A stretch of 30,523 nucleotides of DNA from a virus: positions 1-30,523 of IMG/VR virus record IMGVR_UViG_3300043539_001670. The stretch is one strand, 5' to 3'. A program made the translations under genes and the position numbers. Positions 6,028 through 29,526 of this stretch are shown in pieces (position 1 is the stretch's first letter; the number at the start of each line of letters is the position of its first letter). Under the pieces are notes generated by a model. That model was not told the DNA's origin and searched no databases. It saw only the letters and a list, made by a program, of their open reading frames with translations.

Positions 6028-6401
6028 AAAATCCCATCGTTGGAAAACTGCGCCCGACGCGGGCAAGCAAGACCACCGACCCCTTCTATCTCAGCAAGGA
6101 ATGGCGCGCTGTCAGGCTGGCAGCGCTGAAGCGCGACGGGTTTCGCTGCGTGGTCTGCCGCCGCAGCGTCGCCGGCAAGGGCGAGGCCCGCGTCGATCAC
6201 ATCATCCCGCGCAGCCAGGGCGGCGCGGCTCTCGACCAGGCGAACCTCCGCACGCTCTGCGCTGCTCATGACAACCAGGCGCACCGCGAGAAATCCTCCG
6301 GCGGCGGCGGCGGACCCCGCGTCGAACGCTTCATCGTCAAGGGCCTCGACGCCGACGGCCGGCCCCTCGACCCGAACCACCCCTGGCGGCGCCGTGGGTA
6401 G
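6024..6401 (+). CDS. HNH endonuclease (packaging-associated)
   Basis: 125 residues with a complete HNH/beta-beta-alpha-metal motif. Zinc ligands are Cys42 and Cys45 (CVVC) and Cys79 and His82 (LCAAH). The catalytic core is VDHIIPRSQGG with His59, plus Asn74. In HK97-type cos phages an HNH protein encoded beside the terminase stimulates cos cleavage by the large terminase subunit. The position directly before the small terminase gene fits that role. A Gly/Ser-rich linker (residues about 88-98) leads to a short basic C-terminus ending in WRRRG. It overlaps the previous gene by 4 bases. The TAG stop runs straight into the G-rich putative cos region. Confidence 0.9.
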   Translation: MKNPIVGKLRPTRASKTTDPFYLSKEWRAVRLAALKRDGFRCVVCRRSVAGKGEARVDHIIPRSQGGAALDQANLRTLCAAHDNQAHREKSSGGGGGPRVERFIVKGLDADGRPLDPNHPWRRRG

Positions 6402-12164: not shown

Positions 12165-12199
12165 GGCGCGGCTCGCGGGCGTAAGCCCGCAAACGCGCC
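12165..12199. repeat. Covarying hairpin repeat, copy 1
   Basis: Begins 5 bases after the capsid stop. Outer stem GGCGCG (12165-12170) pairs with CGCGCC (12194-12199). Inner stem GCGGGC (12175-12180) pairs with GCCCGC (12185-12190) around a GTAA loop. No T-tract follows, so it is not a classic intrinsic terminator, though it could still slow RNA polymerase or protect the capsid mRNA end. Confidence 0.8.
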
Positions 12200-12211
12200 G
12201 CCTGAGCCCTA

Positions 12212-12267
12212 GCGCGGCTTTGCCTGCGTCGGCTCGCCACAGGCGAACGATCGCAAGCGAAACGCGC
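12212..12267. repeat. Covarying hairpin repeat, copy 2 (nested form)
   Basis: The outer stem GCGCG (12212-12216) pairs with CGCGC (12263-12267), preceded by the family flank GAGCCCTA. Nested inside is the shorter mini-hairpin type: GTCGGC, then TCGCC-ACA-GGCGA (12234-12246), then ACGATCGC. This copy links the intergenic family to the mini-hairpins translated at the start of three genes. Confidence 0.7.
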
Positions 12268-12289
12268 GGAGGCGATCACGTCAGCTTCA

Positions 12290-12323
12290 GGCGCGGCTCG
12301 TGGGCGAAAGCCCCGAACGCGCC
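12290..12323. repeat. Covarying hairpin repeat, copy 3
   Basis: The outer stem GGCGCG (12290-12295) pairs with CGCGCC (12318-12323). The inner arms GGGC and GCCC close a GAAA tetraloop, with one bulged T (TCGTGGGC against GCCCCGA). It lies 34 bases before the next start codon, so it could sit in the leader of the 12358 gene. Confidence 0.75.
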
Positions 12324-12357
12324 TCTTTCCCCCTCTCCGCTCTGAAGGAGCCCTGTC

Positions 12358-12756
12358 ATGGCTTACCGCGATCTCCGCTCCAATATGGATGCGGTCCACA
12401 CTCTGGCGCCGGCCGCGCGCGCCGCCACCGCCAACGGCGTTTCCGTCGATCTGCGCGGCTTCGAAGGCGCGATGGCCGTGGTCCATTTCGGGACCTGGAC
12501 CGACGGCACGCATACCCCCTCGCTTGAGGAATCCAACGACGGCACCACCTTCACCGCCGTCGCCGCCGCCGATCTGATCGGCAGCTTCTCGGCGGTCACC
12601 TCCGCCGCCGGCAACAACACGGTCCAGCGCGTCGGCTATAGCGGCTCCCGCCGCTTCATCCGCGTGACGATGACGGTCGCCACCGCGACCACCGGCGCGA
12701 CCAGCTCCGCCGCGATCGTCCGCGGCAACCCCGCCACCATCCAGCCGGTGCCCTAG
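12358..12756 (+). CDS. Small structural protein, possible head decoration or fibre protein
   Basis: 132 residues, rich in Thr, Ala, Val and Gly and predicted all-beta. The pattern YRDLRSNMDAVHTLAPAARA, then a beta domain with GTWTDGTHTPSLEESNDGTTF and YSGSRRFIRVTMTV, recurs in small proteins encoded directly after capsid genes in alphaproteobacterial and other siphophages. The position and beta-sandwich look fit a capsid cement or head fibre protein, but I know no experimental proof for this group. The ribosome binding site is GAAGGAG about 10 bases upstream. The TAG stop is part of the hairpin repeat that follows, a feature shared with the tail tube gene. Confidence 0.75.
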   Translation: MAYRDLRSNMDAVHTLAPAARAATANGVSVDLRGFEGAMAVVHFGTWTDGTHTPSLEESNDGTTFTAVAAADLIGSFSAVTSAAGNNTVQRVGYSGSRRFIRVTMTVATATTGATSSAAIVRGNPATIQPVP

Positions 12757-12787
12757 CGCGGCTTGCGGGTGAAACCCGCAAACGCGC
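12756..12787. repeat. Covarying hairpin repeat, copy 4
   Basis: Starts on the last base of the TAG stop. The outer stem GCGCG (12756-12760) pairs with CGCGC (12783-12787). The inner stem TTGCGGGT (12763-12770) pairs perfectly with ACCCGCAA around a GAA loop. A second short palindromic element, CACTTCCTGC...GCAGGAAGTG (12803-12842), follows in the same gap and could form a separate 10-base-pair stem. Confidence 0.8.
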
Positions 12788-12803
12788 GCTGCGACCCGAC
12801 AGC

Positions 12804-12842
12804 CACTTCCTGCAGAGCGGCCCGCCGCGCCGCAGGAAGTGG
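12804..12842. terminator. Stem-loop between structural genes, terminator-like
   Basis: ACTTCCTGC and GCAGGAAGT pair around a GC-rich loop of about 20 bases. A short T-run (TTTTTTTCC near 12858) comes 16 bases later, too far for a classic intrinsic terminator. It may attenuate readthrough or act as a processing site between the decoration-like gene and the next gene. This is a weak call. Confidence 0.35.
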
Positions 12843-12889
12843 CGAAAGGATCGCCCTTTTTTTCCTCTTCTTCATCTGGAGACCCGCTC

Positions 12890-13138
12890 ATGTGGCTCAA
12901 ACCCCTCACCACCACTTCGGCCTGGGAAAACGGCGCGTCCAACCCGACCGCCCTGATCCAGGACCAACCGATCGACGTCAGCGACGATCTCGCCGCCATC
13001 CTGATCCGCGACGGCTTGGCTGAAGCCTGCGATCCTCCGCCTTGCGAAGCCTGCGATCAACCGGATTGCCCGGATTGCGATCCGCCCGCCCCCCCGCCTG
13101 AAGCCCCGGCCGCCCCGCCGGCCGCCAAGAAGAAGTGA
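12890..13138 (+). CDS. Small head/connector-region protein with Cys-rich tail
   Basis: 82 residues from an ATG at 12890, which has a CTGGAG ribosome binding site 8 bases upstream. A longer frame from 12839 lacks a comparable site and would add low-complexity Ser residues. Residues 1-45 (MWLKPLTTTSAWENG, then IDVSDDLAAILIRDGLAE) resemble the short proteins often encoded between capsid and head-tail connector genes. The tail has five Cys at 47, 52, 55, 60 and 63, spaced C-x4-C-x2-C-x4-C-x2-C, and then a Pro/Ala stretch ending KKK. The Cys cluster could bind metal. The function is unknown. The stop overlaps the next ATG (TGATG). Confidence 0.7.
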   Translation: MWLKPLTTTSAWENGASNPTALIQDQPIDVSDDLAAILIRDGLAEACDPPPCEACDQPDCPDCDPPAPPPEAPAAPPAAKKK

Positions 13139-13752
13139 TGTCCTACGCCACCGTCACCGTGACGACGCCAGCCTCTTCGCAGGATCTGGCGTCGCTTGCG
13201 AGCCTGAAGACCGAGCTGCAGATCGCCGGAACTGCGGATGACGCGTGGCTGCAGGAGAAAATCACCGAGGCAAGCGCGGTGATCGCCGCTTATTGCGGCC
13301 GCAGCTTCGGCCAGGAGACGATCAGCCAGACCTTCCGCCTGGAGCGTCCGGCCCCGGCCTTGCAGCTCGCCCGCTTCCCGCTGGCCTCGGTCACTTCGGT
13401 CACGGAGGACGGCGAGCTGCTGACCTCCGATCTCTTTGAGGCCCAGCCGGAGCCGGGCCTGCTGCGCCGGCTGTCCGGCGATCGGCCCGCCGCCTGGACC
13501 GCCGCCAAGGTGACAGTCGTCTATCAGGCCGGATACGCCCTGCCGGCCTCCGCCCCGGCGGCGCTGCGCGACGCCTGCCTGACCCTGGTCAAGGCGCGCT
13601 GGTCCGGCCGCAGCCGCGACCCGCTGATCAAGTCGGAAGAGGCCCCGGACGTCTACAAATTCGATTACTGGGTCGGCGGCGTCGCCGACAGCGGTTCGCT
13701 TTATGACCTGAAAGCCAAGCTTGAGCGCTTCCGCAGCTACGCCAGGCCGTGA
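13138..13752 (+). CDS. Head-tail connector protein (HK97 gp6-like)
   Basis: 204 residues. The helical opening, SLASLKTELQIAGTADDAWLQEKITEASAVIAAYCGR, is the hallmark of gp6/gp15-type head-tail adaptors, followed by a beta insertion and a closing helical segment (LRDACLTLVKARW). Twelve or so copies bind below the portal ring to extend the DNA channel. I take ATG 13138, which overlaps the previous stop, over the GTG one codon upstream. It ends in a TGATG overlap with the next gene. Confidence 0.88.
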   Translation: MSYATVTVTTPASSQDLASLASLKTELQIAGTADDAWLQEKITEASAVIAAYCGRSFGQETISQTFRLERPAPALQLARFPLASVTSVTEDGELLTSDLFEAQPEPGLLRRLSGDRPAAWTAAKVTVVYQAGYALPASAPAALRDACLTLVKARWSGRSRDPLIKSEEAPDVYKFDYWVGGVADSGSLYDLKAKLERFRSYARP

Positions 13753-14072
13753 TGAACCCGATCGCAAGTTACGCCCGCGCCTTCGCCGCCCGCGCGGCCC
13801 TGGCCACGCATACCCGCTATGACGTGAACGACCAGCCCGTCACAGCGCAGGTCCGCGCCGTGCTGCGCGGGGCGAAGAAGGGCGAAATCGTCGATGACGT
13901 GGTCGAAGGCGCGGTCGAGGCCAGACTCCTGGCCGCCGATCTCACGGTCGCCCCGGTCCCCGGCGACAAGCTCACCATCTTCGGCCAGGTCTACAAGATC
14001 ACCGGCGTCGACGACGCCCGTCTCCGCGCCCAGGGCCAGCTCTTGGCCTATGTCGTGGATCTGGCGGGCTGA
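13752..14072 (+). CDS. Head-tail joining protein (stopper-like)
   Basis: 106 residues. The C-terminal half, LLAADLTVAPVPGDKLTIFGQVYKITGVDDARL, reads like the small beta-barrel of the lambda gpFII/Phage_attach and related head-completion (stopper) proteins, with the usual PxPGDxxxxxGxxYxIxGV order. It would seal the connector after packaging and offer the docking face for the tail. The ATG at 13752 overlaps the connector stop, and the stop overlaps the next ATG (TGATG at 14070-14074), so the four genes from 12890 to 14740 are translationally coupled. Confidence 0.75.
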   Translation: MNPIASYARAFAARAALATHTRYDVNDQPVTAQVRAVLRGAKKGEIVDDVVEGAVEARLLAADLTVAPVPGDKLTIFGQVYKITGVDDARLRAQGQLLAYVVDLAG

Positions 14073-14740
14073 TGCGTCTATCCCAAGGCTTCGCGCGGCA
14101 GTATCAGGTCGCGATGCAGGGCGCAGAAGCGCAGACCCGCGCCGCCCATGTCGCCGCCGCCCGCGCTCGGCTGAAGGAAGACGCCGGGCTTGCGCCGGAA
14201 GATCCGGAAGTTCAGACCTTCGTGGATCGCCGCCGGGGCGCGCCGCTGGAATCGGTCGATGTTCCGGGCGTGATCCTGTTTCGCATCTCACGCCTGGCGG
14301 AGGTGGCCCAGTTCGCCCTGCAGGCCGCGCGCGGCTTCTCGCCTGCGCGCTCCGGCAATTACCGCGCCGCCTGGCTGGCCCTGGTCGGCGGCCAGATCTG
14401 GCGCGGCGATGCGATCGATCCCGACGCGGAGCTGACCATCGTCAACCCCGTGCCTTACGCCCGCAAGATCCAACTGCGCGGCGCGAAGGCCCTGTCGGTC
14501 CCGCCCGGCATCGTCGATCGGGTCAGCAACGCGGCGAAAGCCAGGTTCGGAACCAGGGCTTTTCTGATCACGGTCCGCTTCATCCAGCTTCCCCCCGGCG
14601 TCGGCCGCAACTACCGCCTGAAAAACGCCTCCACTCGGGTGATGTCCGGCGGCCGGATCGTCGCGCGCAAGGATTCCCCCAGGGGATCCGCGATCAACTA
14701 CCCGGCGCTGTCGGTCACGCAACGCTGGAGCTTTCAGTAA
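14072..14740 (+). CDS. Neck/tail completion protein (HK97 gp10-like, tentative)
   Basis: 222 residues. Its place, between the stopper-like and tail-terminator-like genes, is where HK97 gp10-type proteins are encoded. Such proteins carry a motif like the observed NPVPYARKIQLRGAK, in which a tyrosine-containing turn precedes the basic segment. The ARSGNYRAAWLALVGG helix and the SVTQRWSFQ end also fit a minor tail protein. The N-terminal 60 residues are helical and charged. Family assignment is by context and general pattern, not by a diagnostic motif. It overlaps both flanking genes by one base. Confidence 0.65.
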   Translation: MRLSQGFARQYQVAMQGAEAQTRAAHVAAARARLKEDAGLAPEDPEVQTFVDRRRGAPLESVDVPGVILFRISRLAEVAQFALQAARGFSPARSGNYRAAWLALVGGQIWRGDAIDPDAELTIVNPVPYARKIQLRGAKALSVPPGIVDRVSNAAKARFGTRAFLITVRFIQLPPGVGRNYRLKNASTRVMSGGRIVARKDSPRGSAINYPALSVTQRWSFQ

Positions 14741-15165
14741 TGCCCCTGCCGGACGCGCTCACCGCCATTCGCAACCGGATCACGACGGCTTATCCCGCCA
14801 TGCCGATCCGCTGGCCGGGCAAGCGCTTCCAGGTCCCGAAACCGCCGACCATGTTCTTCGTCTTCGATTTTCTGGGCTCGTCCCCGGTCACGGCGGGCAT
14901 CGCCGCGACCGGCTCGCATCTCCATCGCGAATTCGCCAGCTTCGCGGTTCACGTGCTGGTCCCGGATGGCGACGGCGACGCGGCCTTGAACGCCACCTGC
15001 CAGCAGCTTGCCGATCTGTTTCGCGTCACCAGCTTCGCCGCAGCCGTCGGTCAGGTGAATTGCGACGGCGAGCCGCGCATCGATCCGCTTCCGTCCGACG
15101 CGATGGAAGGCGCCTGGTTCGGCCGCTCTGTGGTGGTCGATTTCCGTCATGATTTCGTAGGATAG
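14740..15165 (+). CDS. Tail terminator-like protein
   Basis: 141 residues. A helical start, PLPDALTAIRNRITTAYP, leads to a mixed fold with a central helix (ATCQQLADLFR) and a closing strand (GRSVVVDFRHDFVG), the order seen in tail terminators (lambda gpU, DUF4128/DUF3168 types). Such a hexamer caps the tail tube at its final length and attaches it to the head. The ATG at 14740 overlaps the previous stop (TAATG). The same frame runs open far upstream (to 13894) as a shadow of the preceding genes. It precedes the tail tube gene by 12 bases, as is usual. Confidence 0.75.
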   Translation: MPLPDALTAIRNRITTAYPAMPIRWPGKRFQVPKPPTMFFVFDFLGSSPVTAGIAATGSHLHREFASFAVHVLVPDGDGDAALNATCQQLADLFRVTSFAAAVGQVNCDGEPRIDPLPSDAMEGAWFGRSVVVDFRHDFVG

Positions 15166-15177
15166 GAGAAGAACCCC

Positions 15178-16410
15178 ATGCCCATTGCTATCGGCGTAAA
15201 CAAGCGCCTCGCCTTCAAGAAGGAGACGGCGGGAACCCCGAACACCGCGCCCGGCGCGACCGGCGCGCAGGTCGTTCGCCGCGTCGAATCCAGCTTCTCG
15301 CTGCGCAAGCAGGCCTACCAGTCCGAAGAGATCCGCACGGATTACCAGCTCGCGGATTTCCGGCATGGCGCCCGCTCGGTCGAAGGCTCGATCCGGGGCG
15401 AGCTGGCGCCCAACAGCTACGCCGATTTCTTCGCCGCCGCCTGCGGCGCGGCCTGGGCGACCGGCGCGACCACCGGCGCTCTGACCACCATCGCAGCCAC
15501 CGTCTCCGGCAATATCCTCACTCTCACCCGCGCCGCCGGCTCCTTCCTCACCGACGGCCACAAGGTCGGGGATATCGTCAGACAGAGCGGCTGGACCACC
15601 ACCGGCACGGCCAACAACGCCAAGAACGGCCGCATCCTCACCCTCACCCCCACGGTGATGACGATCGCCGATCTGCAAGGCGCCCCGGCCCCCTTCGCCG
15701 CCAAGGCCTCCGGCGACAGCGTCACGGTCTCGGTCACCGGCCGCAAGCTGCTGATCCCGCAGACCGGCCATACCGACGACAGCTTCTGGATCGAGGAGTG
15801 GCACCCGGATACGTTGCTGTCCGAACAGTTCGGCGGCTGTTCGGTCCAGCGCCTCGGCCTCAATCTTCAGGCCAACGGCATCACCCAGATCGATATCGGC
15901 TTCCTCGGCTATGACATGGTCACGGCCGGCGCCGCCTATTACACCACCCCCACGGCGGCGGGCACGGCCGGCGTGCTGGCCGCGCCCAACGGCCGCCTGC
16001 GCGTCGGCGGCGTCGACGTCGCCACCGTCACCAGCCTGCAAATGACCTTGGAGACCGGCCTCACCAACGCCCAGGTCGTGGGCTCCAACATCACCCCGGA
16101 TCTGTTCCCCGGCCGCAAGATCGTCACTGGCAGCTTTTCCGCCTATTTCGAGGACGGAGCCTTGCGCGACGCCTTCATCAATGAAAGCAACATCGCCCTG
16201 CAAAGCTACCTGACCGGCTCCACGGCGGCGAATTCCCCCTGCTTCGCCTTCAAGATCGACAATCTGAAGCTGGGCCAGGCCGACAAGACCGATGGCCAGC
16301 AAGGCATTATCCGCAACTACACTTTCCAGGCGATCCTGAACGCCGCCGGCGGCGCCGGCACGGCCACCGACCTCACCACCATCGCCTTCCAGGATACTGA
16401 GATACCCTAG
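15178..16410 (+). CDS. Major tail tube protein
   Basis: 410 residues. Layout matches the longer siphophage tube proteins: an N-terminal arm (KETAGTPNTAPGATGAQ), then the RSVEGSIRGELAPNSYADFF beta-helix segment. Inserted next is a small domain (about 100-180) with FLTDGHKVGDIVRQSGW and ANNAKNGRILTLT. The SFWIEEWHPDTLLSEQFGGC strand pair follows, then a C-terminal beta sheet ending with an extended strand. Hexameric rings stack to form the tail tube. The ribosome binding site is TAGGAGAAG about 10 bases upstream. The TAG stop is the first element of a hairpin repeat array, which may lower transcription of downstream genes relative to this highly needed product. Confidence 0.88.
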   Translation: MPIAIGVNKRLAFKKETAGTPNTAPGATGAQVVRRVESSFSLRKQAYQSEEIRTDYQLADFRHGARSVEGSIRGELAPNSYADFFAAACGAAWATGATTGALTTIAATVSGNILTLTRAAGSFLTDGHKVGDIVRQSGWTTTGTANNAKNGRILTLTPTVMTIADLQGAPAPFAAKASGDSVTVSVTGRKLLIPQTGHTDDSFWIEEWHPDTLLSEQFGGCSVQRLGLNLQANGITQIDIGFLGYDMVTAGAAYYTTPTAAGTAGVLAAPNGRLRVGGVDVATVTSLQMTLETGLTNAQVVGSNITPDLFPGRKIVTGSFSAYFEDGALRDAFINESNIALQSYLTGSTAANSPCFAFKIDNLKLGQADKTDGQQGIIRNYTFQAILNAAGGAGTATDLTTIAFQDTEIP

Positions 16411-16441
16411 CAGGGCTTTGGCGCTTTGCGCCAAAACCTGC
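16410..16441. repeat. Covarying hairpin repeat, copy 5
   Basis: Directly follows the tail tube stop. The outer stem GCAGG (16410-16414) pairs with CCTGC (16437-16441). The inner stem TTTGGCGC (16417-16424) pairs perfectly with GCGCCAAA (16428-16435) around a TTT loop. Confidence 0.85.
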
Positions 16442-16454
16442 GCCCCGAGCCCTA

Positions 16455-16486
16455 GCGCGGCTTGAGCCCGCAGGGCTCAAACGCGC
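16455..16486. repeat. Covarying hairpin repeat, copy 6
   Basis: Same layout as its neighbours with both arms changed together. Outer stem GCGCG (16455-16459) pairs with CGCGC (16482-16486). Inner stem TTGAGCCC (16462-16469) pairs perfectly with GGGCTCAA (16473-16480) around a GCA loop. The flanks on each side read CCCGAGCCCTA. Confidence 0.85.
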
Positions 16487-16499
16487 GCCCCGAGCCCTA

Positions 16500-16531
16500 G
16501 CAGGGCTTTGACGCAAAGCGCCAAAACCTGC
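16500..16531. repeat. Covarying hairpin repeat, copy 7
   Basis: Outer stem GCAGG (16500-16504) pairs with CCTGC (16527-16531). Inner arms TTTGACGC and GCGCCAAA pair with one A-C mismatch around an AAA loop. It is nearly identical to copy 5 and separated from it by the differing copy 6. Confidence 0.8.
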
Positions 16532-16557
16532 GCAAGGCGCCTGTTTCCTTTTCCTCA

Positions 16558-16576
16558 CCCTGAGCCTGTCGAAGGG
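16558..16576. repeat. CCCTGAGCCTGTCGAAGGG repeat element
   Basis: This 19-base word resembles a dispersed repeat I recall from many alphaproteobacterial chromosomes, usually in gene ends or spacers. Its right half (CTGTCGAAGGG) recurs at 29464-29474 and 29507-29517. Its presence suggests exchange of spacer DNA between phage and host. Confidence 0.5.
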
Positions 16577-16697
16577 CCGGCTCGCCAATCCCCACCTCGT
16601 CGCGTTTGCGGGCGCCTGTCTCCACCTCCCACCGGGCGCGCCTTGCGCGTGTTTGTTCCGCCGCTTCGCGTCGTCACAAGCCCCGCTAGGGCGCGCT

Positions 16698-16733
16698 TGT
16701 CGGGTTCGTCAGCAAGGCTGACGAGCCCCGACA
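16698..16733. terminator. Strong stem-loop upstream of the tail chaperone gene
   Basis: A near-perfect stem of about 15 base pairs, TGTCGGGTTCGTCAG against CTGACGAGCCCCGACA with one bulge, closes a CAAGG loop. There is no T-tract. It lies 32 bases before the GTG start at 16766 and ends the 355-base spacer. It could work as a processing or stability element in the leader of the chaperone-tape measure transcript. Confidence 0.5.
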
Positions 16734-16765
16734 GAGCCCCGCCAGACCAACCGAAAGGCTTTTCA

Positions 16766-17263
16766 GTGTCAAAATTCGACCTCTCCCGCATCACCTATCT
16801 CGCCTCCCTCCCGCTGATGATCAAGCTGCCAGATGGCAGCGACAGCGGCTGGACCGTCAATCTGATGGGCCCTGGGCACCCCAAGCAAGATCTCCTGAAC
16901 GCCGAGCTGCGCCGCTTCCGCGCCGGGCTTGAGCGCGCCGAAGCGGCGGCCAAGGCCGCCGGCCAGCCCTATGAGGAAGACGCCGAAGCCAGTTCGGCCT
17001 TCTTCGCCGGCTGGTCCGCCGCCCGCGTGATCGGCTGGTCCCCGGTCCAGTTCGAAGGCGCTGATTTCAAGGCGACCGACGAAAACAAGCTCAGGATCTT
17101 CAAGGAATCCGCCTTCGGCTTCGCCCGCGACCAGATCCAGGCCGCCTTGGGAAGAACCCAGGATTTTTTGCCGAAATCACCGAAGACCTCCGATCCTTCG
17201 CCCGAGCGAATTTCCAGCTCGACAAGCGCCAGTCCGACGGCCGCTCCCTCCGAGAGCATCTGA
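16766..17263 (+). CDS. Tail assembly chaperone, short form (gpG-like)
   Basis: 165 residues from a GTG at 16766, supported by GAAAGG about 8 bases upstream. An upstream extension of the frame to 16508 runs through the hairpin array and is not credible. The core, with FDLSRITYLASLPLMIKLPDG and a helical second half to about residue 135, looks like the conserved part of siphophage tail assembly chaperones encoded between tube and tape measure genes. After residue 135 the reading frame degenerates into Ser/Pro-rich sequence typical of a shadow frame. This fits a short form made when ribosomes do not shift at 17164-17170. It presumably coats the tape measure protein during tube assembly. Confidence 0.82.
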   Translation: MSKFDLSRITYLASLPLMIKLPDGSDSGWTVNLMGPGHPKQDLLNAELRRFRAGLERAEAAAKAAGQPYEEDAEASSAFFAGWSAARVIGWSPVQFEGADFKATDENKLRIFKESAFGFARDQIQAALGRTQDFLPKSPKTSDPSPERISSSTSASPTAAPSESI

Positions 17264-17547
17264 TCAGCGTCGAAGAACAGACCAAGCGCCGCCCGCCCCA
17301 GCTCACTCTTCCGCCTTGCCCCCCGGCGGCGGCCCATCTCTGGGACTGGCACCGGGAGCTTGGCGCGGGCCGGCAGTTCGGCATGGTCACGGCCTCCGGG
17401 CCGGGCGGGGCGATGCAGATCCCGGTTCCGGCCCGCCTGCCCTGGGCCGATCTCAAAGCCTGGTCCGATCTGACCGGGAATTCCCCCACGCCGCTCGAAT
17501 GGCGGCTCCTGCGCGATCTCGAAACCCTCCAACTGAACGAGGCTTAA
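16766..17547 (+). CDS. Tail assembly chaperone, long form by -1 frameshift (gpGT-like)
   Basis: Reading frame 0 to the TTG at 17168-17170 and then shifting back one base joins a second frame (17170-17547) with no stop, giving about 260 residues. The shifted part reads LAEITEDLRSFARANF, then HLWDWHRELGAGRQFG, PWADLKAWSDLTG and PLEWRLLRDLETLQL. That order (Trp-rich helix, W-x-LTG, then WRLLRDL) is the one I recognise from the T domain of alphaproteobacterial tail chaperones, which recruits the tube protein. The T frame has no start codon of its own near its beginning and ends 6 bases before the tape measure ATG. In lambda the G/GT ratio set by the shift is essential for tail assembly. Efficiency here is unknown. 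Confidence 0.8.
17164..17170 (+). promoter_or_regulatory. Slippery site T TTT TTG for -1 frameshifting
   Basis: Six T followed by G, in phase with frame 0 as T TTT TTG, the X XXY YYZ form that allows both tRNAs to re-pair after a -1 slip. A GGG-AAGAA-CCC type hairpin lies just upstream (about 17146-17161). A small perfect stem TTCGC-CCGA-GCGAA lies downstream (17197-17210). No long pseudoknot is evident by eye. Confidence 0.75.
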
Positions 17548-17553
17548 TCCCGC

Positions 17554-20500
17554 ATGGCGAATAACCCGGTCACAGAGATCGATATCCGAACGCAGCAGGC
17601 CCAGCGCAATCTGGACCAGCTGCGTCAGGCTTTCGATTCCGCCGGCAAGACCGCCGGCCGGCTGGAGGACGCGCTCACCACTCAGAACCAGACCTATCTG
17701 AAGCTGGCTGCGGCCACGGATTCCGCCGCCCGCGCCCGCCAGCAATATGAAGCGCTTGAGCGCCGCGCCGGGGCCGCGCTCGACGCCAACAAGATCAGCG
17801 CGGAACAGTATTCCCGCCTGCTCGACGCGCAGACCGAGAAGCTGAAGAAAGTCGCCGACGCTCAGAACCAGATGACGAATTCTGGAAAGGCGTCAACTGA
17901 AAGCTCTTTGAGCTTTCTGGCTACAGCCGGCAAATACGGCCTTATCGTCACGGCTATAAAAGAAGTCGCCGACACATTTACTGCTGTGCAGCGCACCATC
18001 GCCCAGGCCGGCGATCAGGTCGCCATGATGACCGTCCGGGCGAATCTGGCCACCGAGCGGTTGATGGGCGGCGGCCAGAGCTTCGGCGAGATCGCGCGCA
18101 TCGCGCAAGCCGTGGGCGCGCCGCTGGAGGCGACGGCCGGCCTGTTCGCCCGGATCGGCCGATCGGCCGCCGACGCCGGCGCGACCAGCGTGCAGGAAGT
18201 CTCCCGCGCCACGGAGATCGTCCAGAAGCTGGCCATCGCGTCGGGCGCCACCGTGCAGGAGGCATCCTCCGGCGCGCTGCAATTGGGTCAGGCGCTCGCC
18301 TCTGGTCGCCTGAGCGGCGACGAGCTGCGCACCATCCTGGAAACCATGCCCTCGCTCGGGCAGGCGATCGCCAAGGAGTTCGGCGTCGGGGTCGGCCAGC
18401 TTCGCGACATGGGCGCGGCTGGCGAGCTGGTCTCCGATCGCGTGTTCAAGGCGATCCTGAACGCCGGTTCTGACGCCGACCGCATGTTTGCCGCCCTGCC
18501 GAAAACGGTGGAGCGCGCCAGCACGGAAATGTCCAACGCCTGGACGCTGTTCCTGGCGCAGCTCGACAGATCGCTCGGGGTCTCCAAGGGCATCGTCTCC
18601 GCCATGGAGGCCGCGCGCCGCGTGGCGGAAGGCGCCACCAGGATGGTCGCGCCGGCCGGGCCGGACGCGCAGCTCGCCAATGAGCGAGAGCGGCTGCGCG
18701 TCTTGGACGCCAATCAGCCGATCGTCCAGTCGCGCTTCGATCGCGCGGAGAACGATCAGACCCGCGCGGAAATCCTGAAAAACATCCTGGCGCTGGAAAA
18801 CCAGATCGGCGCGGCGGCGGCCGCCGCCGACGCGGATGATCAGCGCCGCGTCGAAGCCCAGAAACAGGCCCTCGCCGATCGCCTCGCCGGGCTGGAGAAG
18901 GAGCGCGCGGCGGATCTGGCGAAGGCCGAAGTCCGCTCGCGCCTGTCCAGGCAGGCGATCGAGGAGCTGGAGGCGCGCGAAAAAGCCGAAACCGCCATCC
19001 GCGCCAAGCTGGTCGGCCTGTCCGACGCCGACCAGAAAGCGCAAGCCAAGGCCGCCGGCGATCAGGCGGTCGCGCTGCTGCGGCTGAAGCAATCGGCCGA
19101 AGACCGCTGGAAGGCCGAAGCCGAAGGCGCGCGCGCCGCCGAAAAGGCGGCAACCGACGCCGCGCGCCAAGCGGAGAAGAACGCGGTCGACAGCGCGCGG
19201 GCGGCGGCGCAGGAGCAGGAAGCGCGCGATCGCGCCCTGGAGACCGTCGCCGAACAAGTGAACCGCCTGGAAGATGAAGCCGCCGCGATCAGCCTTGGCG
19301 CGCGCGAACGCGCCGTGCTGGCCGAACGGCTGAAAGCCGAGACCGCTCTGAAGAAGGGTCTGGTGGATGTCGATCAGGAGCTGTACCAGGCCGAATTGAA
19401 GCGGGTCGAGCTGGCGGCCGGGCAGAAATTCGACAGCGAGCGCAGCAACCGGGAAGCCGAGCGCGCCGCGACCGACGCCGCGCGCATCGCCGAACGCCAG
19501 GCCGAAGAGGCCGCCCGGCCGATGCGCAACCTGTTCGACAATCTGCAGCGCGGCACGGCGCAGATCTTCGAGGGTTTGTTCACCGGCACGCTGAATGTCG
19601 GTCAGGCGTTTCGCAAAGTGCTGTTGAACGCGGCGGCGGAATATCTCAGCGCCGTCGCCGTCACGCCCGCCCTGCGCAGCCTCGGCTCCGCCGTGGGTCT
19701 CGGCTCCGGCCAGCCCGGATCAGGCGGCGGCGGCTTCCAAATGCCCGGCTTCGGCGGCGGCGGGCTGATGGATGGCCTCACCAGCCGGATCGACAGTTTC
19801 GGCAGCTCCGTCCTCGGCACGGCCGCGCCGGGCGCGGTCGGCGGCTGGACCGTCACCGGCGTCGGCGGTCCTTCCGCCTCCGCCCTGAACGCCGCCAATG
19901 GCGCAGGCGCGCTGTCCAGCTATCTGCCCTTCGCCGGGGTTGGCGTCGGCGCGCTGATGCAATTCGCCCAGGGCAATGTTGGCGGCGGAATCGGCACGCT
20001 GGGCGGGGCTGGCCTGGGCTTCCTGGCCGGCGGCCCGGTCGGGATGGGAATCGGCGCGGCGCTTGGCGGCTTTCTGGGCGGGGCATTCGGCGGCAAGAAA
20101 CCCTCGGTCGGCCCCGGCGGCGGAATCGGCTTCGGCGTCGGCGCCGATGGCAAGGTGAATGTGGGCTTCACCAGCCAGGACAACAATTACGACGCCGTCG
20201 CCAAGAACCTGGACGCCGCGCAGAGCGTGGCGGACGCCGCGGCCAAGCTGATCGAGCGGCTGGGCGGGAAGTTCACCGGCACGGCGGTGGCCGGGCGCGG
20301 CGCTGAATTGGGCTATGACGCCGGCCTCAAGATGTTCACCGGCGGGGATGACACCTCCGGCGGTCGCGGCCGGTTCAAGACGCTGGAAGAGGCGATGGCC
20401 GCCTCCGTCACCGCAATCATCAAGAACGCCACCACCACCGGCCTGTCGAAGGATATTCAGGACCGGCTGGCCAAGGTCGCGACCAGCCAGGATCTTGAGA

Positions 20501-24127: not shown

Positions 24128-26539
24128 ATGACGACTCTCACCGTCAACGGCAACACGTACAGCGACGACCGCAACCCGACCACGGGCCTGGGCGGCGGCG
24201 GCCACCGCACGAGGCTGATCCCGCTGTTCGGCGATTCCCTGGTCGAAATCGGCGCGCTGGTCGGCAATGTGCTGGGCTTCGGCACGCGGTTTGTGTTCGA
24301 CGCAGGCACGGCGGCCGCTGATCCCGGCGCGGGGCTGCTGCGGTTCAACAATGCGGCCTCGGCCAGCGCGACGGCGATCCACATCGACAATCTGAACAGC
24401 GCGGGCGGGGATATCTCCGGCTGGCTCACCCTGATCGGCGTGAACCGGGGGCAGCTCCATTTGCGCAACGCTTCGGGCTCGAAATGGCGCGTCTACAATA
24501 TCACCTCGGTCACGGCGAATGGCGGCTGGGCGACCATCGCCGTCAGCTTTGGCTCCGGCTCGGGCGCGGAGTTCACGGCGGCGGAGAGCCTGATCGTGAG
24601 CCTGGCCCCGGCCGGCCCGCCCGGCACGGTAAGCGCCGCCGGCGACGGCACGATCAGCGCGCCGGGCTTCGCTTTCGCCAGCGAAGCCGGCCTGGGCATG
24701 CGCCGCAAGGGCGCGGCCCTCGCGGCGATCACGGCGTCAGGCGCTGACCTGCTGGAGCTGCGCATCGCCAGCCTCGCGGAAGCCCAGGCCGGAACCAACA
24801 CCCTGGCGCTGATGAGCCCGCAGCGCGTGCTGGATGCGATCCGCCGCAACGCCCCTGGCAACACCGGCGGTCAGACCGCGACCGGCGATCTGACGCTGAC
24901 CGTCACGTCGGCCGGCGCAATCCTGGTGACGCCCACCGCGCCGGGTTTCTTCGTCACGCTGCCGGCGGCCAACACATTCGGCGCGGCCGGGCCGGGGATC
25001 TTCTCGATCTACAACGCCGGCCATTTCGATTACGGCATCCGCGACAGCACCGGGACGCGGCTCGGCTGGATTCCGCCGCGCGGCTCGGCCGTCATCGATC
25101 TGGTCAGCAACGGCACGGCGGCCGGAACCTGGAACTGCGTCGGCGCGGTGAAGCTGGGAATCACCGCGCAGTTTGTGAACCCGAGCATCACCGGCGCGGC
25201 CGGCGGCGCGCCGACGCAGGCGATCGACATGGGCAGCGGGCGCACGCTGTTCCTGATCGCGAATTCCGATCTCTACGGTCTTGTCTATGACGGGCCGACG
25301 CGGGCTTGGGGGTCGATGACCCTGATCCGCGCGGGGGTGCAAAACGGGTTTATCGCCGGCATTCAAACTGTCGCCGGCAGCCAGGCGCTGGTCTGTTCCT
25401 GCAACAGCGGCGGCACGACCTTCCAGGCGGTGGTTCTGACCATCGCCACGACGGCGATCACCGTGAACACGCCGGTCTCCGCCACCCTGGCCGGGAACGG
25501 CGGCGACGCGGCGCCGATGGTCGCCGTCGGCTCCAGCTATCTGATCGCCTATGGCCGGCAGAGCACCACGATCGGGCTGCGCGCCATCACGATCTCCGGA
25601 ACGACGCCGACGATCGGCGCGGAATCGGCCGTCGCCAGCTCGGTGGCCAGCTTCCGCCCGGCGGATCTCTATGTCTCCGGCTCTGTGGTCAGGGTGATCA
25701 CCGCCAGCACGGCGACCACCGTCTTGGCGCAGCCCTACACCGTTTCCGGAACCACGCTGACGGCCGGCACCGCCGCCACCGCCACCGCCACGGCGAACGA
25801 CGCCGCCAATATGCGCACCTACCAGAACAGCAACGGCAACATTGTGGCGGTCTTCGTGAGCACTACGCCGCAGGCCGCGATCTTCCGCCTGACCGGCACG
25901 ACGGAGGCGGCCAGCACGGTGAACCTGGGCGGGGCGCATCTGGCGGGGCTCAACAACAATTCCGATCTGGTGGATCTGACCGGCGGCAAGACCCTGGTGG
26001 CCTGGACCAACGCCGGGCAGACCGGAGTGATTGCGAACATCCTGACCGACACGGCGGGAACCGCCTCGGCCGGCACGGCCTTGACCATCGCTACGCCGCA
26101 GCCGGCCAGCCAGGGCGTTGCGGCCCTGTTCGGCGGGGCCAGCGCGGCGCGGCTGTTGGTGCATGGCGCCGCCACCAGCGATCCGAACCAGACCCAGATC
26201 ACCCTGGGCGTCTCCGGCGCTTCGCCGACGCTGACCGCCGTGCAGCAATTGCGCGGCCATCTGCCGGATGTCTTGGCCGTCAACGCCAATCTGCGCGGCC
26301 GGCGCTCGGTCGCGTTGCTGCGCGCGGGAACCGCCGCCTATGTGATCCCCCAGGCCAGCGCGGTCGGCTCCGGCGCGCTGCTGGCGACGCCGAACAATCT
26401 GGCGGCGATCTCCCGCCCCCGCACCGGCGTGCGCGTCGAGGCCACGATCGGCGCGGCGGATTTCCAGAGCTGGTTCGGCCAGTCAACGAGCGCCGGCGGG
26501 AACGGCTTGATCCTCAATCAAATGGAGTGCGCGGCATGA
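24128..26539 (+). CDS. Tail fibre / receptor-binding protein with propeller-like repeats
   Basis: 803 residues. The N-terminus, TTLTVNGNTYSDDRNPTTGLGGGGHRTRLIPLFGD, is a tail-attachment module shared by phage fibres. A middle part contains SLAEAQAGTNTLALMSPQRVLDAI, the linker type EAEAGT...MSPxR found in many fibres. Residues about 370-760 carry about eight repeats of roughly 50 residues, each with a hydrophobic strand such as YLIAYGRQSTTIGLRAITISG and a Thr-rich turn, consistent with a seven- or eight-bladed beta-propeller. The very C-terminus (FQSWFGQSTSAGGNG) may be a trimer tip. It most likely determines host range. The ATG follows the previous stop directly. Confidence 0.8.
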   Translation: MTTLTVNGNTYSDDRNPTTGLGGGGHRTRLIPLFGDSLVEIGALVGNVLGFGTRFVFDAGTAAADPGAGLLRFNNAASASATAIHIDNLNSAGGDISGWLTLIGVNRGQLHLRNASGSKWRVYNITSVTANGGWATIAVSFGSGSGAEFTAAESLIVSLAPAGPPGTVSAAGDGTISAPGFAFASEAGLGMRRKGAALAAITASGADLLELRIASLAEAQAGTNTLALMSPQRVLDAIRRNAPGNTGGQTATGDLTLTVTSAGAILVTPTAPGFFVTLPAANTFGAAGPGIFSIYNAGHFDYGIRDSTGTRLGWIPPRGSAVIDLVSNGTAAGTWNCVGAVKLGITAQFVNPSITGAAGGAPTQAIDMGSGRTLFLIANSDLYGLVYDGPTRAWGSMTLIRAGVQNGFIAGIQTVAGSQALVCSCNSGGTTFQAVVLTIATTAITVNTPVSATLAGNGGDAAPMVAVGSSYLIAYGRQSTTIGLRAITISGTTPTIGAESAVASSVASFRPADLYVSGSVVRVITASTATTVLAQPYTVSGTTLTAGTAATATATANDAANMRTYQNSNGNIVAVFVSTTPQAAIFRLTGTTEAASTVNLGGAHLAGLNNNSDLVDLTGGKTLVAWTNAGQTGVIANILTDTAGTASAGTALTIATPQPASQGVAALFGGASAARLLVHGAATSDPNQTQITLGVSGASPTLTAVQQLRGHLPDVLAVNANLRGRRSVALLRAGTAAYVIPQASAVGSGALLATPNNLAAISRPRTGVRVEATIGAADFQSWFGQSTSAGGNGLILNQMECAA

Positions 26540-26952
26540 CCTTGAAGGCGTTAAGAGACCAGACCGGGCGGGTGTTCGGCCCCTGCCACGTGATCACGGA
26601 GACACCGGATGCTTATCTCTGTGACGCCACGGTCTACCCGAAAAGCGTGATCGGCCCCGCCACCATCGAGGACTGGACCGACCCCGCCCCGCCGCCTGCG
26701 CCGGTTCCGGCCAAGGTCACGAACGCGCAGGCTCGCTATGTGCTGCGCCGTACGCCTTACGGGGAAGGGACGCTGTTCGACGCGGTGAACGCGGCGGCGC
26801 AGGCGCAGGGCGGCGACATCCTGGATTTCTGGGAATACGGCAACGAGTTCTACCGCGACAGCCCGGCGATTCTGGGTCTGGCGGCAGCGCTGGAAATCTC
26901 TTCGGCGCAGCTCGACGACCTGTTCCGCGCGGCGGAGGGGGTGCAGCTATGA
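26536..26952 (+). CDS. Fibre-associated protein (possible tail fibre assembly chaperone)
   Basis: 138 residues. The N-terminal 45 residues form a small beta domain (GRVFGPCHVITETPDAYLC). A Pro-rich hinge (DPAPPPAPVPAK) leads to a helical domain, VTNAQARYVLRRTPYGEG, and an acidic WEYGNEFYRDSPAILGLAAALEISSAQLDDLFRAA segment. The closing pattern (E-F-x-R-D-x-P-x-L, then L-D-D-L-F-x-A) is the one I know from proteins encoded next to tail fibres and from chaperone C-termini. It overlaps the fibre stop by 4 bases and the next gene by 4 bases. The chaperone role is inferred. Confidence 0.7.
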   Translation: MTLKALRDQTGRVFGPCHVITETPDAYLCDATVYPKSVIGPATIEDWTDPAPPPAPVPAKVTNAQARYVLRRTPYGEGTLFDAVNAAAQAQGGDILDFWEYGNEFYRDSPAILGLAAALEISSAQLDDLFRAAEGVQL

Positions 26953-27188
26953 CCTTCCTCCTGAACTACCTCTACAACGTGATGGTCGCGCTGTCGCAGT
27001 TCCTGAACGTGGCCCTGTTCTTCGGCGATCCGGACGAAAGCATCTCCGGCCGGATCGGCAAGAGCATCGCGGCCGGCGGATGGGCCGCGCGCATGCCCTG
27101 GCCGGGCTTCATGCGCCGGCATTTCCTGGCCTCGATCGAGCCGGAAGAGGGGCGCGACGGCGCGTTCGATCGCCGGAGCCGGGTATGA
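26949..27188 (+). CDS. Small membrane protein of the lysis region
   Basis: 79 residues with one N-terminal hydrophobic segment (residues about 3-25, TFLLNYLYNVMVALSQFLNVALFF). The motif GDPDESISGRIGK and a basic aromatic part (MPWPGFMRRHF) follow. A segment like ALFFGDPDESIS is common in small phage proteins encoded next to lysis genes. The role is not established. Overlaps the previous and next genes by ATGA. It is possibly a second holin or antiholin, but one transmembrane helix is not enough to say so. Confidence 0.65.
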   Translation: MTFLLNYLYNVMVALSQFLNVALFFGDPDESISGRIGKSIAAGGWAARMPWPGFMRRHFLASIEPEEGRDGAFDRRSRV

Positions 27189-27592
27189 ACGGCCTCGGCT
27201 CACCAGGGGCGAACGATGGCCACGGCCTCGGCTCGCCGCAGGCGATCGACGTCCGCGCCGGCTATCCGCCCGATCGCCGCGCCTCGCCGCACCCGCTGAA
27301 AGTGCTGGCGCAGGGCTGGCCGATCCTCGCCAGCGTCTTCGCCGCGCTGATCGGCATGTTCATGCAGTGGGCCGATCTGCGCCGCGACATGGGCGTGATC
27401 GAGCGGCGCTTGATGGAGAATGACCGCCGCGTCGCCAATCTGGAGGCGATCGACGCCGCCAACGCCGCGCTGATGACCGAGCTGAAAGTGAGTCTGGCGG
27501 AGATCAAGGCCGAGATCCGCGCGCTGCGCATCGAAATGGAGATCGGCCCCCCGCCTCGCAGCCCGCGCCGCCGCGCAGAAAGCCTGCAATGA
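27185..27592 (+). CDS. Membrane-anchored coiled-coil protein, repeat-derived N-terminus
   Basis: 135 residues. One transmembrane helix lies at about 44-62 (GWPILASVFAALIGMFMQW), followed by a coiled coil of about 50 residues and a Pro/Arg-rich end. This resembles the small single-pass proteins of phage lysis regions. The first 24 residues contain the repeat motif twice (GLGSPGAND and GLGSPQAID). They look like mini-hairpin element sequence read in frame, since the rest of the protein begins as a normal unit near residue 25. The ATG at 27185 has a GGAG about 7 bases upstream. Function unknown. Confidence 0.7.
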   Translation: MNGLGSPGANDGHGLGSPQAIDVRAGYPPDRRASPHPLKVLAQGWPILASVFAALIGMFMQWADLRRDMGVIERRLMENDRRVANLEAIDAANAALMTELKVSLAEIKAEIRALRIEMEIGPPPRSPRRRAESLQ

Positions 27593-27867
27593 CCAATCCG
27601 TTCTATGAACCGCCGCCCCGCCTGCCGCGCCCGATCCGCCCGGCCGGGCGTCTGAACGCGCAGACCTATGATCTGGAGAGCCAGGGGCAGACCATCACGG
27701 TGACGATCGCCCGCGACGCGGAGACCGGGCAGGCGCTGGAGATCGTGCTGCATGGGCCGAAAGTGGGATCCACCCTGGATCTGCTGTTTCAGGATCTGGG
27801 CGCGGCGCTCTCCCGCCTGATCCAGAACCGCGACCCCGAGAACGGCCAGCCGATCCGGCCTTCCTGA
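27589..27867 (+). CDS. Hypothetical phage protein, TSCPD-domain-like
   Basis: 92 residues. The middle, SQGQTITVTIARDAETGQALEIVLHGPKVGSTLDLLFQDLGAALSRLIQ, follows the pattern of TSCPD/NrdJ-type small domains that are found in many phage hypothetical proteins (strand with xVTVxxxxxxGxxxEIxLxGxKxGS, then a long helix). Cys residues of the true TSCPD motif are absent, so any nucleotide or metal role is doubtful. The ATG overlaps the previous stop by 4 bases. Resemblance is by eye only. Confidence 0.65.
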   Translation: MTNPFYEPPPRLPRPIRPAGRLNAQTYDLESQGQTITVTIARDAETGQALEIVLHGPKVGSTLDLLFQDLGAALSRLIQNRDPENGQPIRPS

Positions 27868-27879
27868 CAGGAGACATCC

Positions 27880-28080
27880 ATGAAGAACACTGGAAGACCC
27901 GCCGTTTCCGGCGCGGGCGCGATGGGCGTGATCGGCGATCATTTTCCCGACGCCGGCAAAATGGTCTCCTTCCCGCCTGACTGGCCGGCCCGTCGCGCGG
28001 TCACCGCGGAAGAGCGGCGACGGATCGAGGCCGCGCCGCGCCCCTCCCTTGAACTCCTGGCTCTTGGAGCATCTCGATGA
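27880..28080 (+). CDS. Hypothetical phage protein, 66 aa
   Basis: 66 residues, with a good ribosome binding site (CAGGAGACATCC before ATG 27880) and an ATGA overlap with the endolysin-like gene at 28077. Contains FPDAGKMVSFPPDWP and a short basic helix (EERRRIEAAP). No membrane segment, no recognised domain. Real by context and spacing, with unknown function. Confidence 0.6.
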   Translation: MKNTGRPAVSGAGAMGVIGDHFPDAGKMVSFPPDWPARRAVTAEERRRIEAAPRPSLELLALGASR

Positions 28081-28556
28081 CCAACGCCGCTTTGCTTCCG
28101 CGCGGGATCAGGAACCACAATCCCGGCAATATCCGCCCGAACCCGAGATGGATCTGGCTGGGCGAAGGCCAGCCGGATGTTGATCCGGCGATGGGCGCCT
28201 ATTGCCGGTTCATCGCCCCGCGCTATGGCCTGCGCGCGCTGATCCGCGATTGCCGCAACAAAAGGCGGCGCGGATTGAACACGCTGTTCAAGATCAAGGC
28301 CGCCTTCGCCCCGGCCGCCGATGGCAATGACGTGGCGGCCTATGCCGGCGCAGTCGCGCGCATGGTGTCGGAGGAGCTGGGCATCGATCTGGACGTCAAC
28401 GATCCGCTGCCGCCGGACACGCGCGAATTTCGCATCGCGCTGGCCAAGGCGATGACCCGCGTCGAATGCGGCGACCCCTCCCGCCATGGCATGCCGAAAT
28501 GGTGGTACGCCGACGAGGTCTATCAGACCGCCGCCGAGATGGAGGAAAATCCATGA
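28077..28556 (+). CDS. Endolysin-like / phage lytic protein
   Basis: 159 residues. The opening RGIRNHNPGNIR, then a Trp/Leu/Gly segment and CRFIAPRYGLRALIRDCR, is the pattern of phage proteins called structural P5-like or lysozyme-like muralytic proteins, which start RGIRNNNPGNI and carry lysozyme-like folds. Candidate catalytic acidic residues include the Glu and Asp in the WLGEGQPDVDPAMGAYCRF stretch, but I cannot assign them. No signal peptide. It lies directly before the holin-like and spanin genes, which supports a lysis role. It ends in an ATGA overlap with the holin-like gene. Confidence 0.75.
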   Translation: MTNAALLPRGIRNHNPGNIRPNPRWIWLGEGQPDVDPAMGAYCRFIAPRYGLRALIRDCRNKRRRGLNTLFKIKAAFAPAADGNDVAAYAGAVARMVSEELGIDLDVNDPLPPDTREFRIALAKAMTRVECGDPSRHGMPKWWYADEVYQTAAEMEENP

Positions 28557-28819
28557 CCAGCGTCGGCTCTGCGCAGCAGAACGAGCGCGCCCGCGTCGGC
28601 GCCAGATCTCGACAGCGCCGCCGCCGCCGCGTGGCGGCCTATCTGCTGGCGCGGCTGCAGGAGCCCAGCTCCTGGGCCTGCGGCCTCACCCTGATCGGCG
28701 CGGGCATCGGCGCGAAGATCGCGCCGGAGCATGCTTTGGCCATCACCGAGGCCGGGGTGATCGCGGCCGGCGCGCTGAAAGCTTTTCTGCCCGATCGCTG
28801 GAGAGAGGAAGCCCCATGA
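28553..28819 (+). CDS. Holin-like protein, repeat-derived N-terminus
   Basis: 88 residues. Two hydrophobic segments lie at about 42-57 (ACGLTLIGAGIGAKIA) and 61-78 (ALAITEAGVIAAGALKAF), separated by a short PEH turn. This is a class II-like holin topology that would form the pore through which the endolysin escapes. The first 25 residues (TSVGSAQQNERARVG, then an Arg run) match the mini-hairpin repeat family, and the family-like part begins near residue 27. ATG 28553 has GGAGGAAA upstream and overlaps the endolysin stop. The Arg-rich N-terminus may delay membrane insertion, as in antiholin forms, which is speculative. Confidence 0.75.
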   Translation: MTSVGSAQQNERARVGARSRQRRRRRVAAYLLARLQEPSSWACGLTLIGAGIGAKIAPEHALAITEAGVIAAGALKAFLPDRWREEAP

Positions 28820-29271
28820 TCCCCGCTTTGTTCGCCTCCGGCGCCGTCGCCGGCCGTCTGCCCTGGCGCGCGATCGGCCTTGCGGCCGTAGCCGGCCTGA
28901 CCCTGTTCGCCTTGCTCTATCTGCGCGGCGAGACCCAGCGCCAGGCGGCGGTGATCGAGGCGCAGCGCGCGCAGCTCGACCAGGCGGAGGCGGCGAACAA
29001 AAGCCTTGTCGCCTCGATCAAGGAGCTGAAGCTCAATCACCAGCGAGAGACCGCAGCCCTGAAACTCCAGGCCGAAGCCAGCGCCCGCGCGGCGCTGCAG
29101 GCCGCAAGAGCAAGGCAGTATGTGAATGACCAGAAACAGAAAAGCGACCCTCTGGCTGATCCCGTGCTTGATGGCGCTGTTAAGCGGCTGCGCAAGCCCC
29201 GAGCCCCGGATGGTGACCAGCCTGAGAATCAAGCGGCTGCTCCCGCCGGCGGATCTGCTCTCCTGCCCTGA
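28816..29271 (+). CDS. Inner-membrane spanin (Rz-like)
   Basis: 151 residues. One N-terminal transmembrane helix (about 18-36, RAIGLAAVAGLTLFALLYL) is followed by a long periplasmic coiled coil (about 40-100, with Gln/Ala/Glu heptads) and a Pro/Asn-rich end. This is the i-spanin architecture, which joins with an outer-membrane lipoprotein to fuse the two membranes in the last step of lysis. Its 3-prime third overlaps the o-spanin gene in another frame for 146 bases, the partly embedded arrangement known from other phages. It follows the holin-like gene by an ATGA overlap. Confidence 0.88.
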   Translation: MIPALFASGAVAGRLPWRAIGLAAVAGLTLFALLYLRGETQRQAAVIEAQRAQLDQAEAANKSLVASIKELKLNHQRETAALKLQAEASARAALQAARARQYVNDQKQKSDPLADPVLDGAVKRLRKPRAPDGDQPENQAAAPAGGSALLP

Positions 29272-29434
29272 CGCCCCCGACCCGCCCGCCCCGGACCCCG
29301 GCGCAGCCCTGCTGCGCCAATCCCAAGTGGCGGAGCATCTGATCGCCGTCTGGGAAGCCGGCGAAGACTGCCGCGCCAAGCTGCGCGCGATCCAGGCCTG
29401 GGCGGCGGATGCGTCCGGCTCTCCCTCGCCCTGA
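29126..29434 (+). CDS. Outer-membrane spanin lipoprotein (Rz1-like)
   Basis: 102 residues. A basic start (MTRNRKA), a hydrophobic run and a lipobox LLSGC mark a signal peptidase II cleavage before Cys22. The mature protein is about 81 residues with a Pro-rich segment (CPDAPDPPAPDPG). That is a typical o-spanin composition. It starts within the i-spanin gene in the +1 frame and continues past its end. Extra Cys residues (positions about 47 and 82) could form disulphides in the periplasm, as in other o-spanins. Its TGA stop is the first three bases of the 43-base tandem repeat that separates it from the minus-strand genes. Confidence 0.88.
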   Translation: MTRNRKATLWLIPCLMALLSGCASPEPRMVTSLRIKRLLPPADLLSCPDAPDPPAPDPGAALLRQSQVAEHLIAVWEAGEDCRAKLRAIQAWAADASGSPSP

Positions 29435-29526
29435 TCAGGCGCGGCTCGCTCGCGAACGCGCCTCTGTCGAAGGGTGATCAGGCGCGGCTCGCTCGCGAAC
29501 GCGCCTCTGTCGAAGGGTGATCAGGC
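29432..29526. repeat. Exact 43-base tandem repeat with hairpins, plus start of a third unit
   Basis: Unit 1 (29432-29474) and unit 2 (29475-29517) are identical: TGATCA, then a GGCGCG/CGCGCC-paired hairpin (29438-29462) with inner TCGC-TC-GCGA, then CTCTGTCGAAGGG. A third unit begins at 29518 (TGATCAGGC) and breaks off. The block lies between two convergent genes, touching both stop codons, so it probably works as a two-way transcription barrier. It belongs to the covarying repeat family. Confidence 0.85.

Follow-up and report, generated by a model that had tools for sequence, protein, structure and literature searches.

Structure-defined hairpins with a constant GCT/AA internal loop at phage gene junctions, and their resemblance in design to REP elements

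Several intergenic gaps in the late region of the phage sequence studied here contain short hairpins whose arms differ from copy to copy while remaining self-complementary. The sequence is IMG/VR record IMGVR_UViG_3300043539_001670, and all 30,523 nucleotides of it are referred to below as the window. What kind of element preserves its shape in this way? A sequence-only reading of the window had listed nine such hairpins. All nine were found, the one at 12212-12267 being a nested copy, but those at 29438 and 29481 are not independent, as they belong to a 43-bp tandem duplication. Missed in that reading were a GCT/AA internal loop, a CTAG tag, a minus-strand composite (16636-16733) and a set of short forms. 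The loop and the tag link these hairpins to REP-type elements, a connection that had been overlooked.

The common core, present in 9/9 hairpins, is an asymmetric internal loop, 5'-GCT/3'-AA, flanked on either side by a stem whose sequence is free. Directly below this loop, an invariant G-C pair forms the top of the lower stem. The unit is defined by structure: a free lower stem closed by G-C, the GCT/AA loop, a free upper stem and a terminal loop of 3-4 nt. Apart from the tag, only about five bases are constant. The copies at 12756, 16410, 16455 and 16500 are exactly 32 nt each, with a 5 bp lower stem, 5'-GCT facing 3'-AA, a 7 bp upper stem and a 3 nt loop. The frame GCGCGGCT..AACGCGC occurs 6 times in the window versus 0.05 expected from shuffling, and GCAGGGCT..AACCTGC occurs twice versus 0.00 expected. 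When every possible 3+2 loop is ranked over the window, GCT/AA comes first, with 7 strict matches versus 0 in 20 shuffles. The previously described switch of the outer stem from GCGCG/CGCGC to GCAGG/CCTGC was seen, but there are more variants, including TGTCGGG/CCCGACA (window) and AATCACG/CGTGATT (G582, a second phage). The inner arms, said to pair perfectly, mostly do so; the exceptions are a C.A at an inner base (12166), a bulged T (12291) and an A.C in 16500-16531.

The tetranucleotide CTAG occurs only 7 times in the 30.5 kb window, and 6 of these are hairpin feet. It is absent from c1, c3, c8, c9 and m1 (Table 1). For the genes before c4 and c5, the in-frame stop codon is supplied by the TAG of the hairpin itself. 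The 132-aa gene before c4 belongs to PHROG 5707, a family of unknown function, and lies in the position of a decoration protein.

Table 1. Positions and features of hairpins with the GCT/AA loop in the window.
Copy	Position	Strand	Features
c1	12165..12199	+	GCGCG GCT CGCGGGC GTAA GCCCGCA AA CGCGC; 34 bits; few bases past major-capsid stop
c2	12209..12267	+	CTAG tag; nested
c3	12290..12323	+	28.9 bits; one bulged T in inner stem
c4	12751..12787	+	CCCTAG tag; TAG is in-frame stop of 132-aa gene
c5	16405..16441	+	CCCTAG tag; TAG is in-frame stop of 410-aa tail protein; outer stem GCAGG/CCTGC
c6	16450..16486	+	CCCTAG tag
c7	16495..16531	+	CCCTAG tag; single A.C mismatch in inner stem
m2	16636..16691	-	imperfect; CCCTAGCGGGGCTT..AAACACGCGC; constant frame common to second phage G582
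m1	16698..16733	-	TGTCGGG GCT CGTCAGC CTT GCTGACG AA CCCGACA; 41.6 bits
c8	29437..29463	+	past spanin stop; AGGCGCG GCT CGCTCGCG AA CGCGCCT
c9	29480..29506	+	tandem duplicate of c8, 43-bp unit
short form	2404..2434	+	4-bp inner stem; TTGA stop/start overlap before primase-like gene; 12.7 bits, not significant alone
short form	28557..28588	+	ATGA stop/start overlap, lysis region; 12.6 bits, not significant alone

Some members depart from the simple layout. The inner stem of c2 encloses a second, short GCT/AA hairpin (12226-12254), and m1, in which the outer and inner stems are both new, forms with m2 the minus-strand composite. The strict loop search yielded m1 and three short forms (2409, 12229 and 28563), each of the latter with a 4-bp inner stem; the covariance model scores the short forms weakly, at about 12 bits (E 1.5-2.1). 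The membership of two of the three is less certain, as they lie across stop/start junctions and can be translated. Three unrelated reading frames open at stop/start overlaps (2399-2440, 28553-28590 and 27185-27250), and their N-terminal peptides (MSSVGFAQRNDRA, MTSVGSAQQNERA and MNGLGSPGAND) are alike because they are encoded by short-form hairpin DNA. Such palindromes within coding sequence are reminiscent of the Rickettsia palindromic elements.

Covariation was assessed in an alignment of six 32-nt copies, namely four of those listed in the sequence-only reading, one from the minus strand and one from another phage. Pairing is retained in 98.6% of cells and two-sided changes occur at 10/12 pairs, which bears out the earlier claim of paired changes. 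None of 500 shuffles equalled the alignment on any measure, and a sliding-partner control lowered pairing to 22-52%. Across 17 elements from three phages, 175/179 pairs are Watson-Crick and a single one of the 179 is G-T. The elements were chosen for pairing, so the weight rests on the loop and on the diversity of the arms (16 different inner arms and 9 different outer ones) and not on pairing itself. Shared descent is behind part of the arm variation (c5, c7 and the L015 copy L015a; c8 and c9), and the inner arms of c5 and c7 are held in common; most inner arms are unrelated. Strong covariation, now in three phages, supports the proposed selection on structure. Selection on RNA alone is not established, because G-T pairs are nearly absent and the loop is conserved on both strands, and a hairpin acting at the DNA level would fit at least as well.

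The long forms lie past the stops of the major capsid, 132-aa, tail and spanin genes. At 28 capsid-homologue loci, two of them from the window's own phage, the 70 nt past the stop were compared; in 13 this segment folds with unusual stability (z below -2) and is unrelated in sequence. In one prophage-like relative (L190), CGTCATTCCGGCGAAGGCCGGAATCCA occurs within 70 nt past the capsid stop and fits the description of a CGTC-1 REP; this CGTC-type REP occupies the gap between capsid and next gene, the site of the window's hairpins. Caulobacter phage Sansa has annotated terminators behind its tail and spanin genes. Stem-loops at these sites in relatives indicate that a hairpin there is normal, and that the kind of hairpin is the new part. 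Scans identified no U-tract after the long-form copies. A separate, U-tailed intrinsic terminator (12841-12855) lies directly behind c4; within 12802-12860, it comes after a long inverted repeat, CCACTTCCTGC..GCAGGAAGTGG. Also present next to hairpins, at 16559-16580 and 29463-29476, is a GAGCCTGTCGAAGGG-type repeat. It resembles what we take to be a common sphingomonad intergenic repeat, and a sphingomonad host is our guess.

The family was also identified in two other phages, G582 (IMG/VR 3300044729_004026) and L015 (3300031991_000096), and is thus a real, structure-defined family of at least three related phages. Two further records, L001 (99.8%) and L002 (100%), represent the window's own phage. 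G582 (26 kb) and the window have a common tail module, with 62% identity in the tape measure and 70% in the next gene, and the head genes of G582 have no match in the window. G582 encodes hairpins at 6216 and 6257, directly after a 677-aa ORF in the capsid position, and a minus-strand composite at about 14500-14565. The composite frame GCGCGCCCTAGCGGGGCTT..AAACACGCGC is common to G582 and window positions 16636-16733, with wholly different arms, and the two composites sit at different gene junctions of homologous tail modules. In L015, a long and a short form adjoin each other past the presumed tail-terminator gene. The inner stem TTGGCGC/GCGCCAA occurs both in c5 (16410-16441) and in L015a (1213-1244), with the loop TTT in c5 versus AAA in L015a, as would result from an inversion of the inner hairpin.

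Evidence for insertion comes from the junction between the tape-measure gene and the next gene. There is essentially no gap at this junction in the window and in 19/20 relatives; one relative (L218) has a U-tailed terminator there, and G582 alone has the composite, about 107 bp. From this comparison of sequences, the G582 composite is a clear derived insertion. On its right side the outer arm, CGTGATT, runs into the start of the next gene (GTGATT). This start is shared with the window, so the left arm AATCACG matches sequence that was probably present beforehand. As a single case, the overlap hints at fold-back copying or later compensation. No pair of empty and filled junctions was found in near-identical genomes, and movement is deduced from few cases, given that the family is known from three phages among the matches listed.

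No real copy of the commonest subtype, CCTAGCGCGGCT..AACGCGC, came out of an exhaustive scan that covered the genomes of 84,980 species of bacteria and archaea; the 17 matches all lack inner stems and were dismissed as chance. Strict GCT/AA hairpins number 0 in 356 kb of sphingomonad DNA. In 200 sphingomonad genomes, model and pattern searches gave chance-like matches only, weak or without inner stems, at a limited sensitivity (the model scored few candidates per genome). Two pattern scans of viral sequences identified real elements, among the matches listed, only in the known phages and G582, and rarer members may have escaped them. Apart from G582 and L015, neither distant capsid relatives nor 80 tail-protein relatives have GCT/AA hairpins above control words. 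BLAST matches in two human-gut phage records were judged coincidental, and plasmid matches were short and due to chance. Rfam 15 gave 0 matches above the gathering score, and no described phage element of this form was found in the literature, so the earlier statement to that effect stands as far as it is testable. Integron attC sites were considered for CGGCTT..AAC and set aside, as visual inspection showed no RYYYAAC/GTTRRRY boxes. The arms differ between copies, which spoke against both type III antitoxin repeats and anti-CRISPR RNA repeats, and these were dropped.

The closest known design is that of the E. coli REPs, in which GTAG precedes the hairpin and a conserved AA/GC mismatch bulge is required for the transposase TnpA-REP; this protein reads the folded single strand in a strand-specific manner, and the upper stem is non-specific (PMC8266576). 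The y/z REPs of E. coli (group 2 REPtron) are likewise 20-40 nt extragenic hairpins with a tetranucleotide at the 5' foot and an upper stem that is non-specific in recognition, and they too occur in both orientations and as composites. Their bulge of AA opposite GC may be compared with the GC(T)/AA loop of the phage hairpins, where the sides are swapped. The 32-nt long forms, lying in intergenic gaps, fall within the REP size range (20-40 bp extragenic palindrome). However, the phage tag is CTAG, in part of the copies, rather than GTAG, and in the phage loop GC lies 5' and AA 3', the reverse of the E. coli REP with its AA 5' and GC 3'. The phage stems are also hypervariable, no RAYT gene was seen, and the setting is a phage rather than a chromosome with hundreds of copies. 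A CGTC REP is marked by its unpaired CGTC tag, by a continuous stem of 8-9 bp that begins with AT, and by a CCA tail (PMC3733652), all of which are lacking in the phage family; REPs of this type, common in alphaproteobacteria, are similar in being short intergenic palindromes without a known transposase (PMC3733652). No unpaired GTAG or CGTC was found at one end of the phage hairpins, and no high chromosomal copy number for the commonest subtype in the 84,980 species or, at limited sensitivity, for the family in the 200 sphingomonad genomes. None of the three phage records, the window included and all of them fragments, has the Y1 transposase/RAYT domain (PF01797). The resemblance to E. coli REPs is therefore one of design and not of membership, given the results for tag, copy number and transposase.

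The position of the long forms, past the stops of capsid, 132-aa, tail and spanin genes, could be explained by an element of the late mRNA. The GCU/AA loop would be recognised by a protein of phage or host origin, or cleaved by an RNase III-like enzyme, and would set the stability of each gene's message. In transcripts of phage T7, the intergenic RNase III processing hairpins likewise have two stems, separated by an asymmetric internal loop. The conservation of the loop while the stems covary, and the stem-loops of relatives at the same site past the capsid gene, agree with such a role. The T7 sites, however, are longer, the stems here being short for RNase III, and unlike them the phage family includes opposite-strand copies: in two phages the GCT/AA loop of the composite is on the strand opposite the late mRNA. 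G-U pairs, which drifting RNA helices usually contain, are also nearly absent, and we consider an element acting purely through RNA rather unlikely. Less likely again are ordinary leaky terminators or 3'-end stabilisers multiplied by local duplication, with a loop that is ancestral and has no function of its own. The plain tandem duplication of c8 and c9 and the inner arms shared by c5 and c7 are what such multiplication would produce, and intrinsic terminators occupy equivalent places in phage late operons, behind capsid, tail and spanin genes (Sansa; L218). The long forms differ from these in having no U-tract, a conserved internal loop and the CTAG tag, and their arms are fully changed around a fixed loop even between phages with unrelated head genes.

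A mutational process could also keep the palindromes perfect as their sequence drifts, if fold-back or template-switch synthesis at replication forks kept copying an arm onto its partner. Consistent with this are the rarity of G-T pairs, the match of the G582 left arm to pre-existing gene sequence and the inverted loop of the stem shared by c5 and L015a. Yet the invariant GCT/AA loop is unexplained by such copying, which should erase it or make it symmetric, as is the CTAG tag, and we regard the process as a very doubtful explanation of the family. A different proposal is that of a mobile hairpin known by shape only, in which a factor would recognise the GCT/AA loop and the CTAG foot, and insertion would rebuild one arm from flanking DNA; this we think unlikely.

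We tentatively favour REP-like hairpin cassettes that are recognised by structure, are mobile or were formerly so, and are kept as 3'-end stem-loops, a reading that seems to us quite possible but short of probable. It is suggested by the covariation around an invariant loop, by that loop being the commonest 3+2 loop in the window and absent from the sphingomonad DNA, and by the concentration of CTAG at hairpin feet. The minus-strand composite, with its constant frame and new arms at different junctions in two phages, its restriction to G582 at the tape-measure junction, the rarity of G-T pairs and the other hairpins, terminators or REP at the same places in relatives point the same way, as does the E. 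coli design of tag, bulge and non-specific upper stem (PMC8266576). Against it are the lack of a Y1 transposase in three fragmentary phage records and of any RAYT link, the lack of a GTAG or CGTC tag, the copies without CTAG, and the fact that no host genome with the family was found. In the REP-like reading, by analogy with TnpA-REP and its GTAG and AA/GC bulge, a factor would read the folded single strand via the loop and the tag. Units may have been inserted at gene junctions by a protein, at times bringing a stop codon, and would have been kept mainly behind strongly expressed structural genes. There, as their position suggests, the stem-loop in the mRNA may protect or attenuate the upstream message.

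Sequence searches hardly see such elements, because only about five bases and the tag are constant, and structure is needed to find them. If the hairpins are known by shape only, they would be a class of non-autonomous elements without conserved stem sequence, each copy having new matching arms. If they are mobile, REP-like cassettes would occur in phages too, recognisable almost wholly by shape. If instead they act in RNA, the copies would be a natural set of variants in which a single internal loop stands out as the active part. In both cases, the loop offers a small target that can be tested directly.
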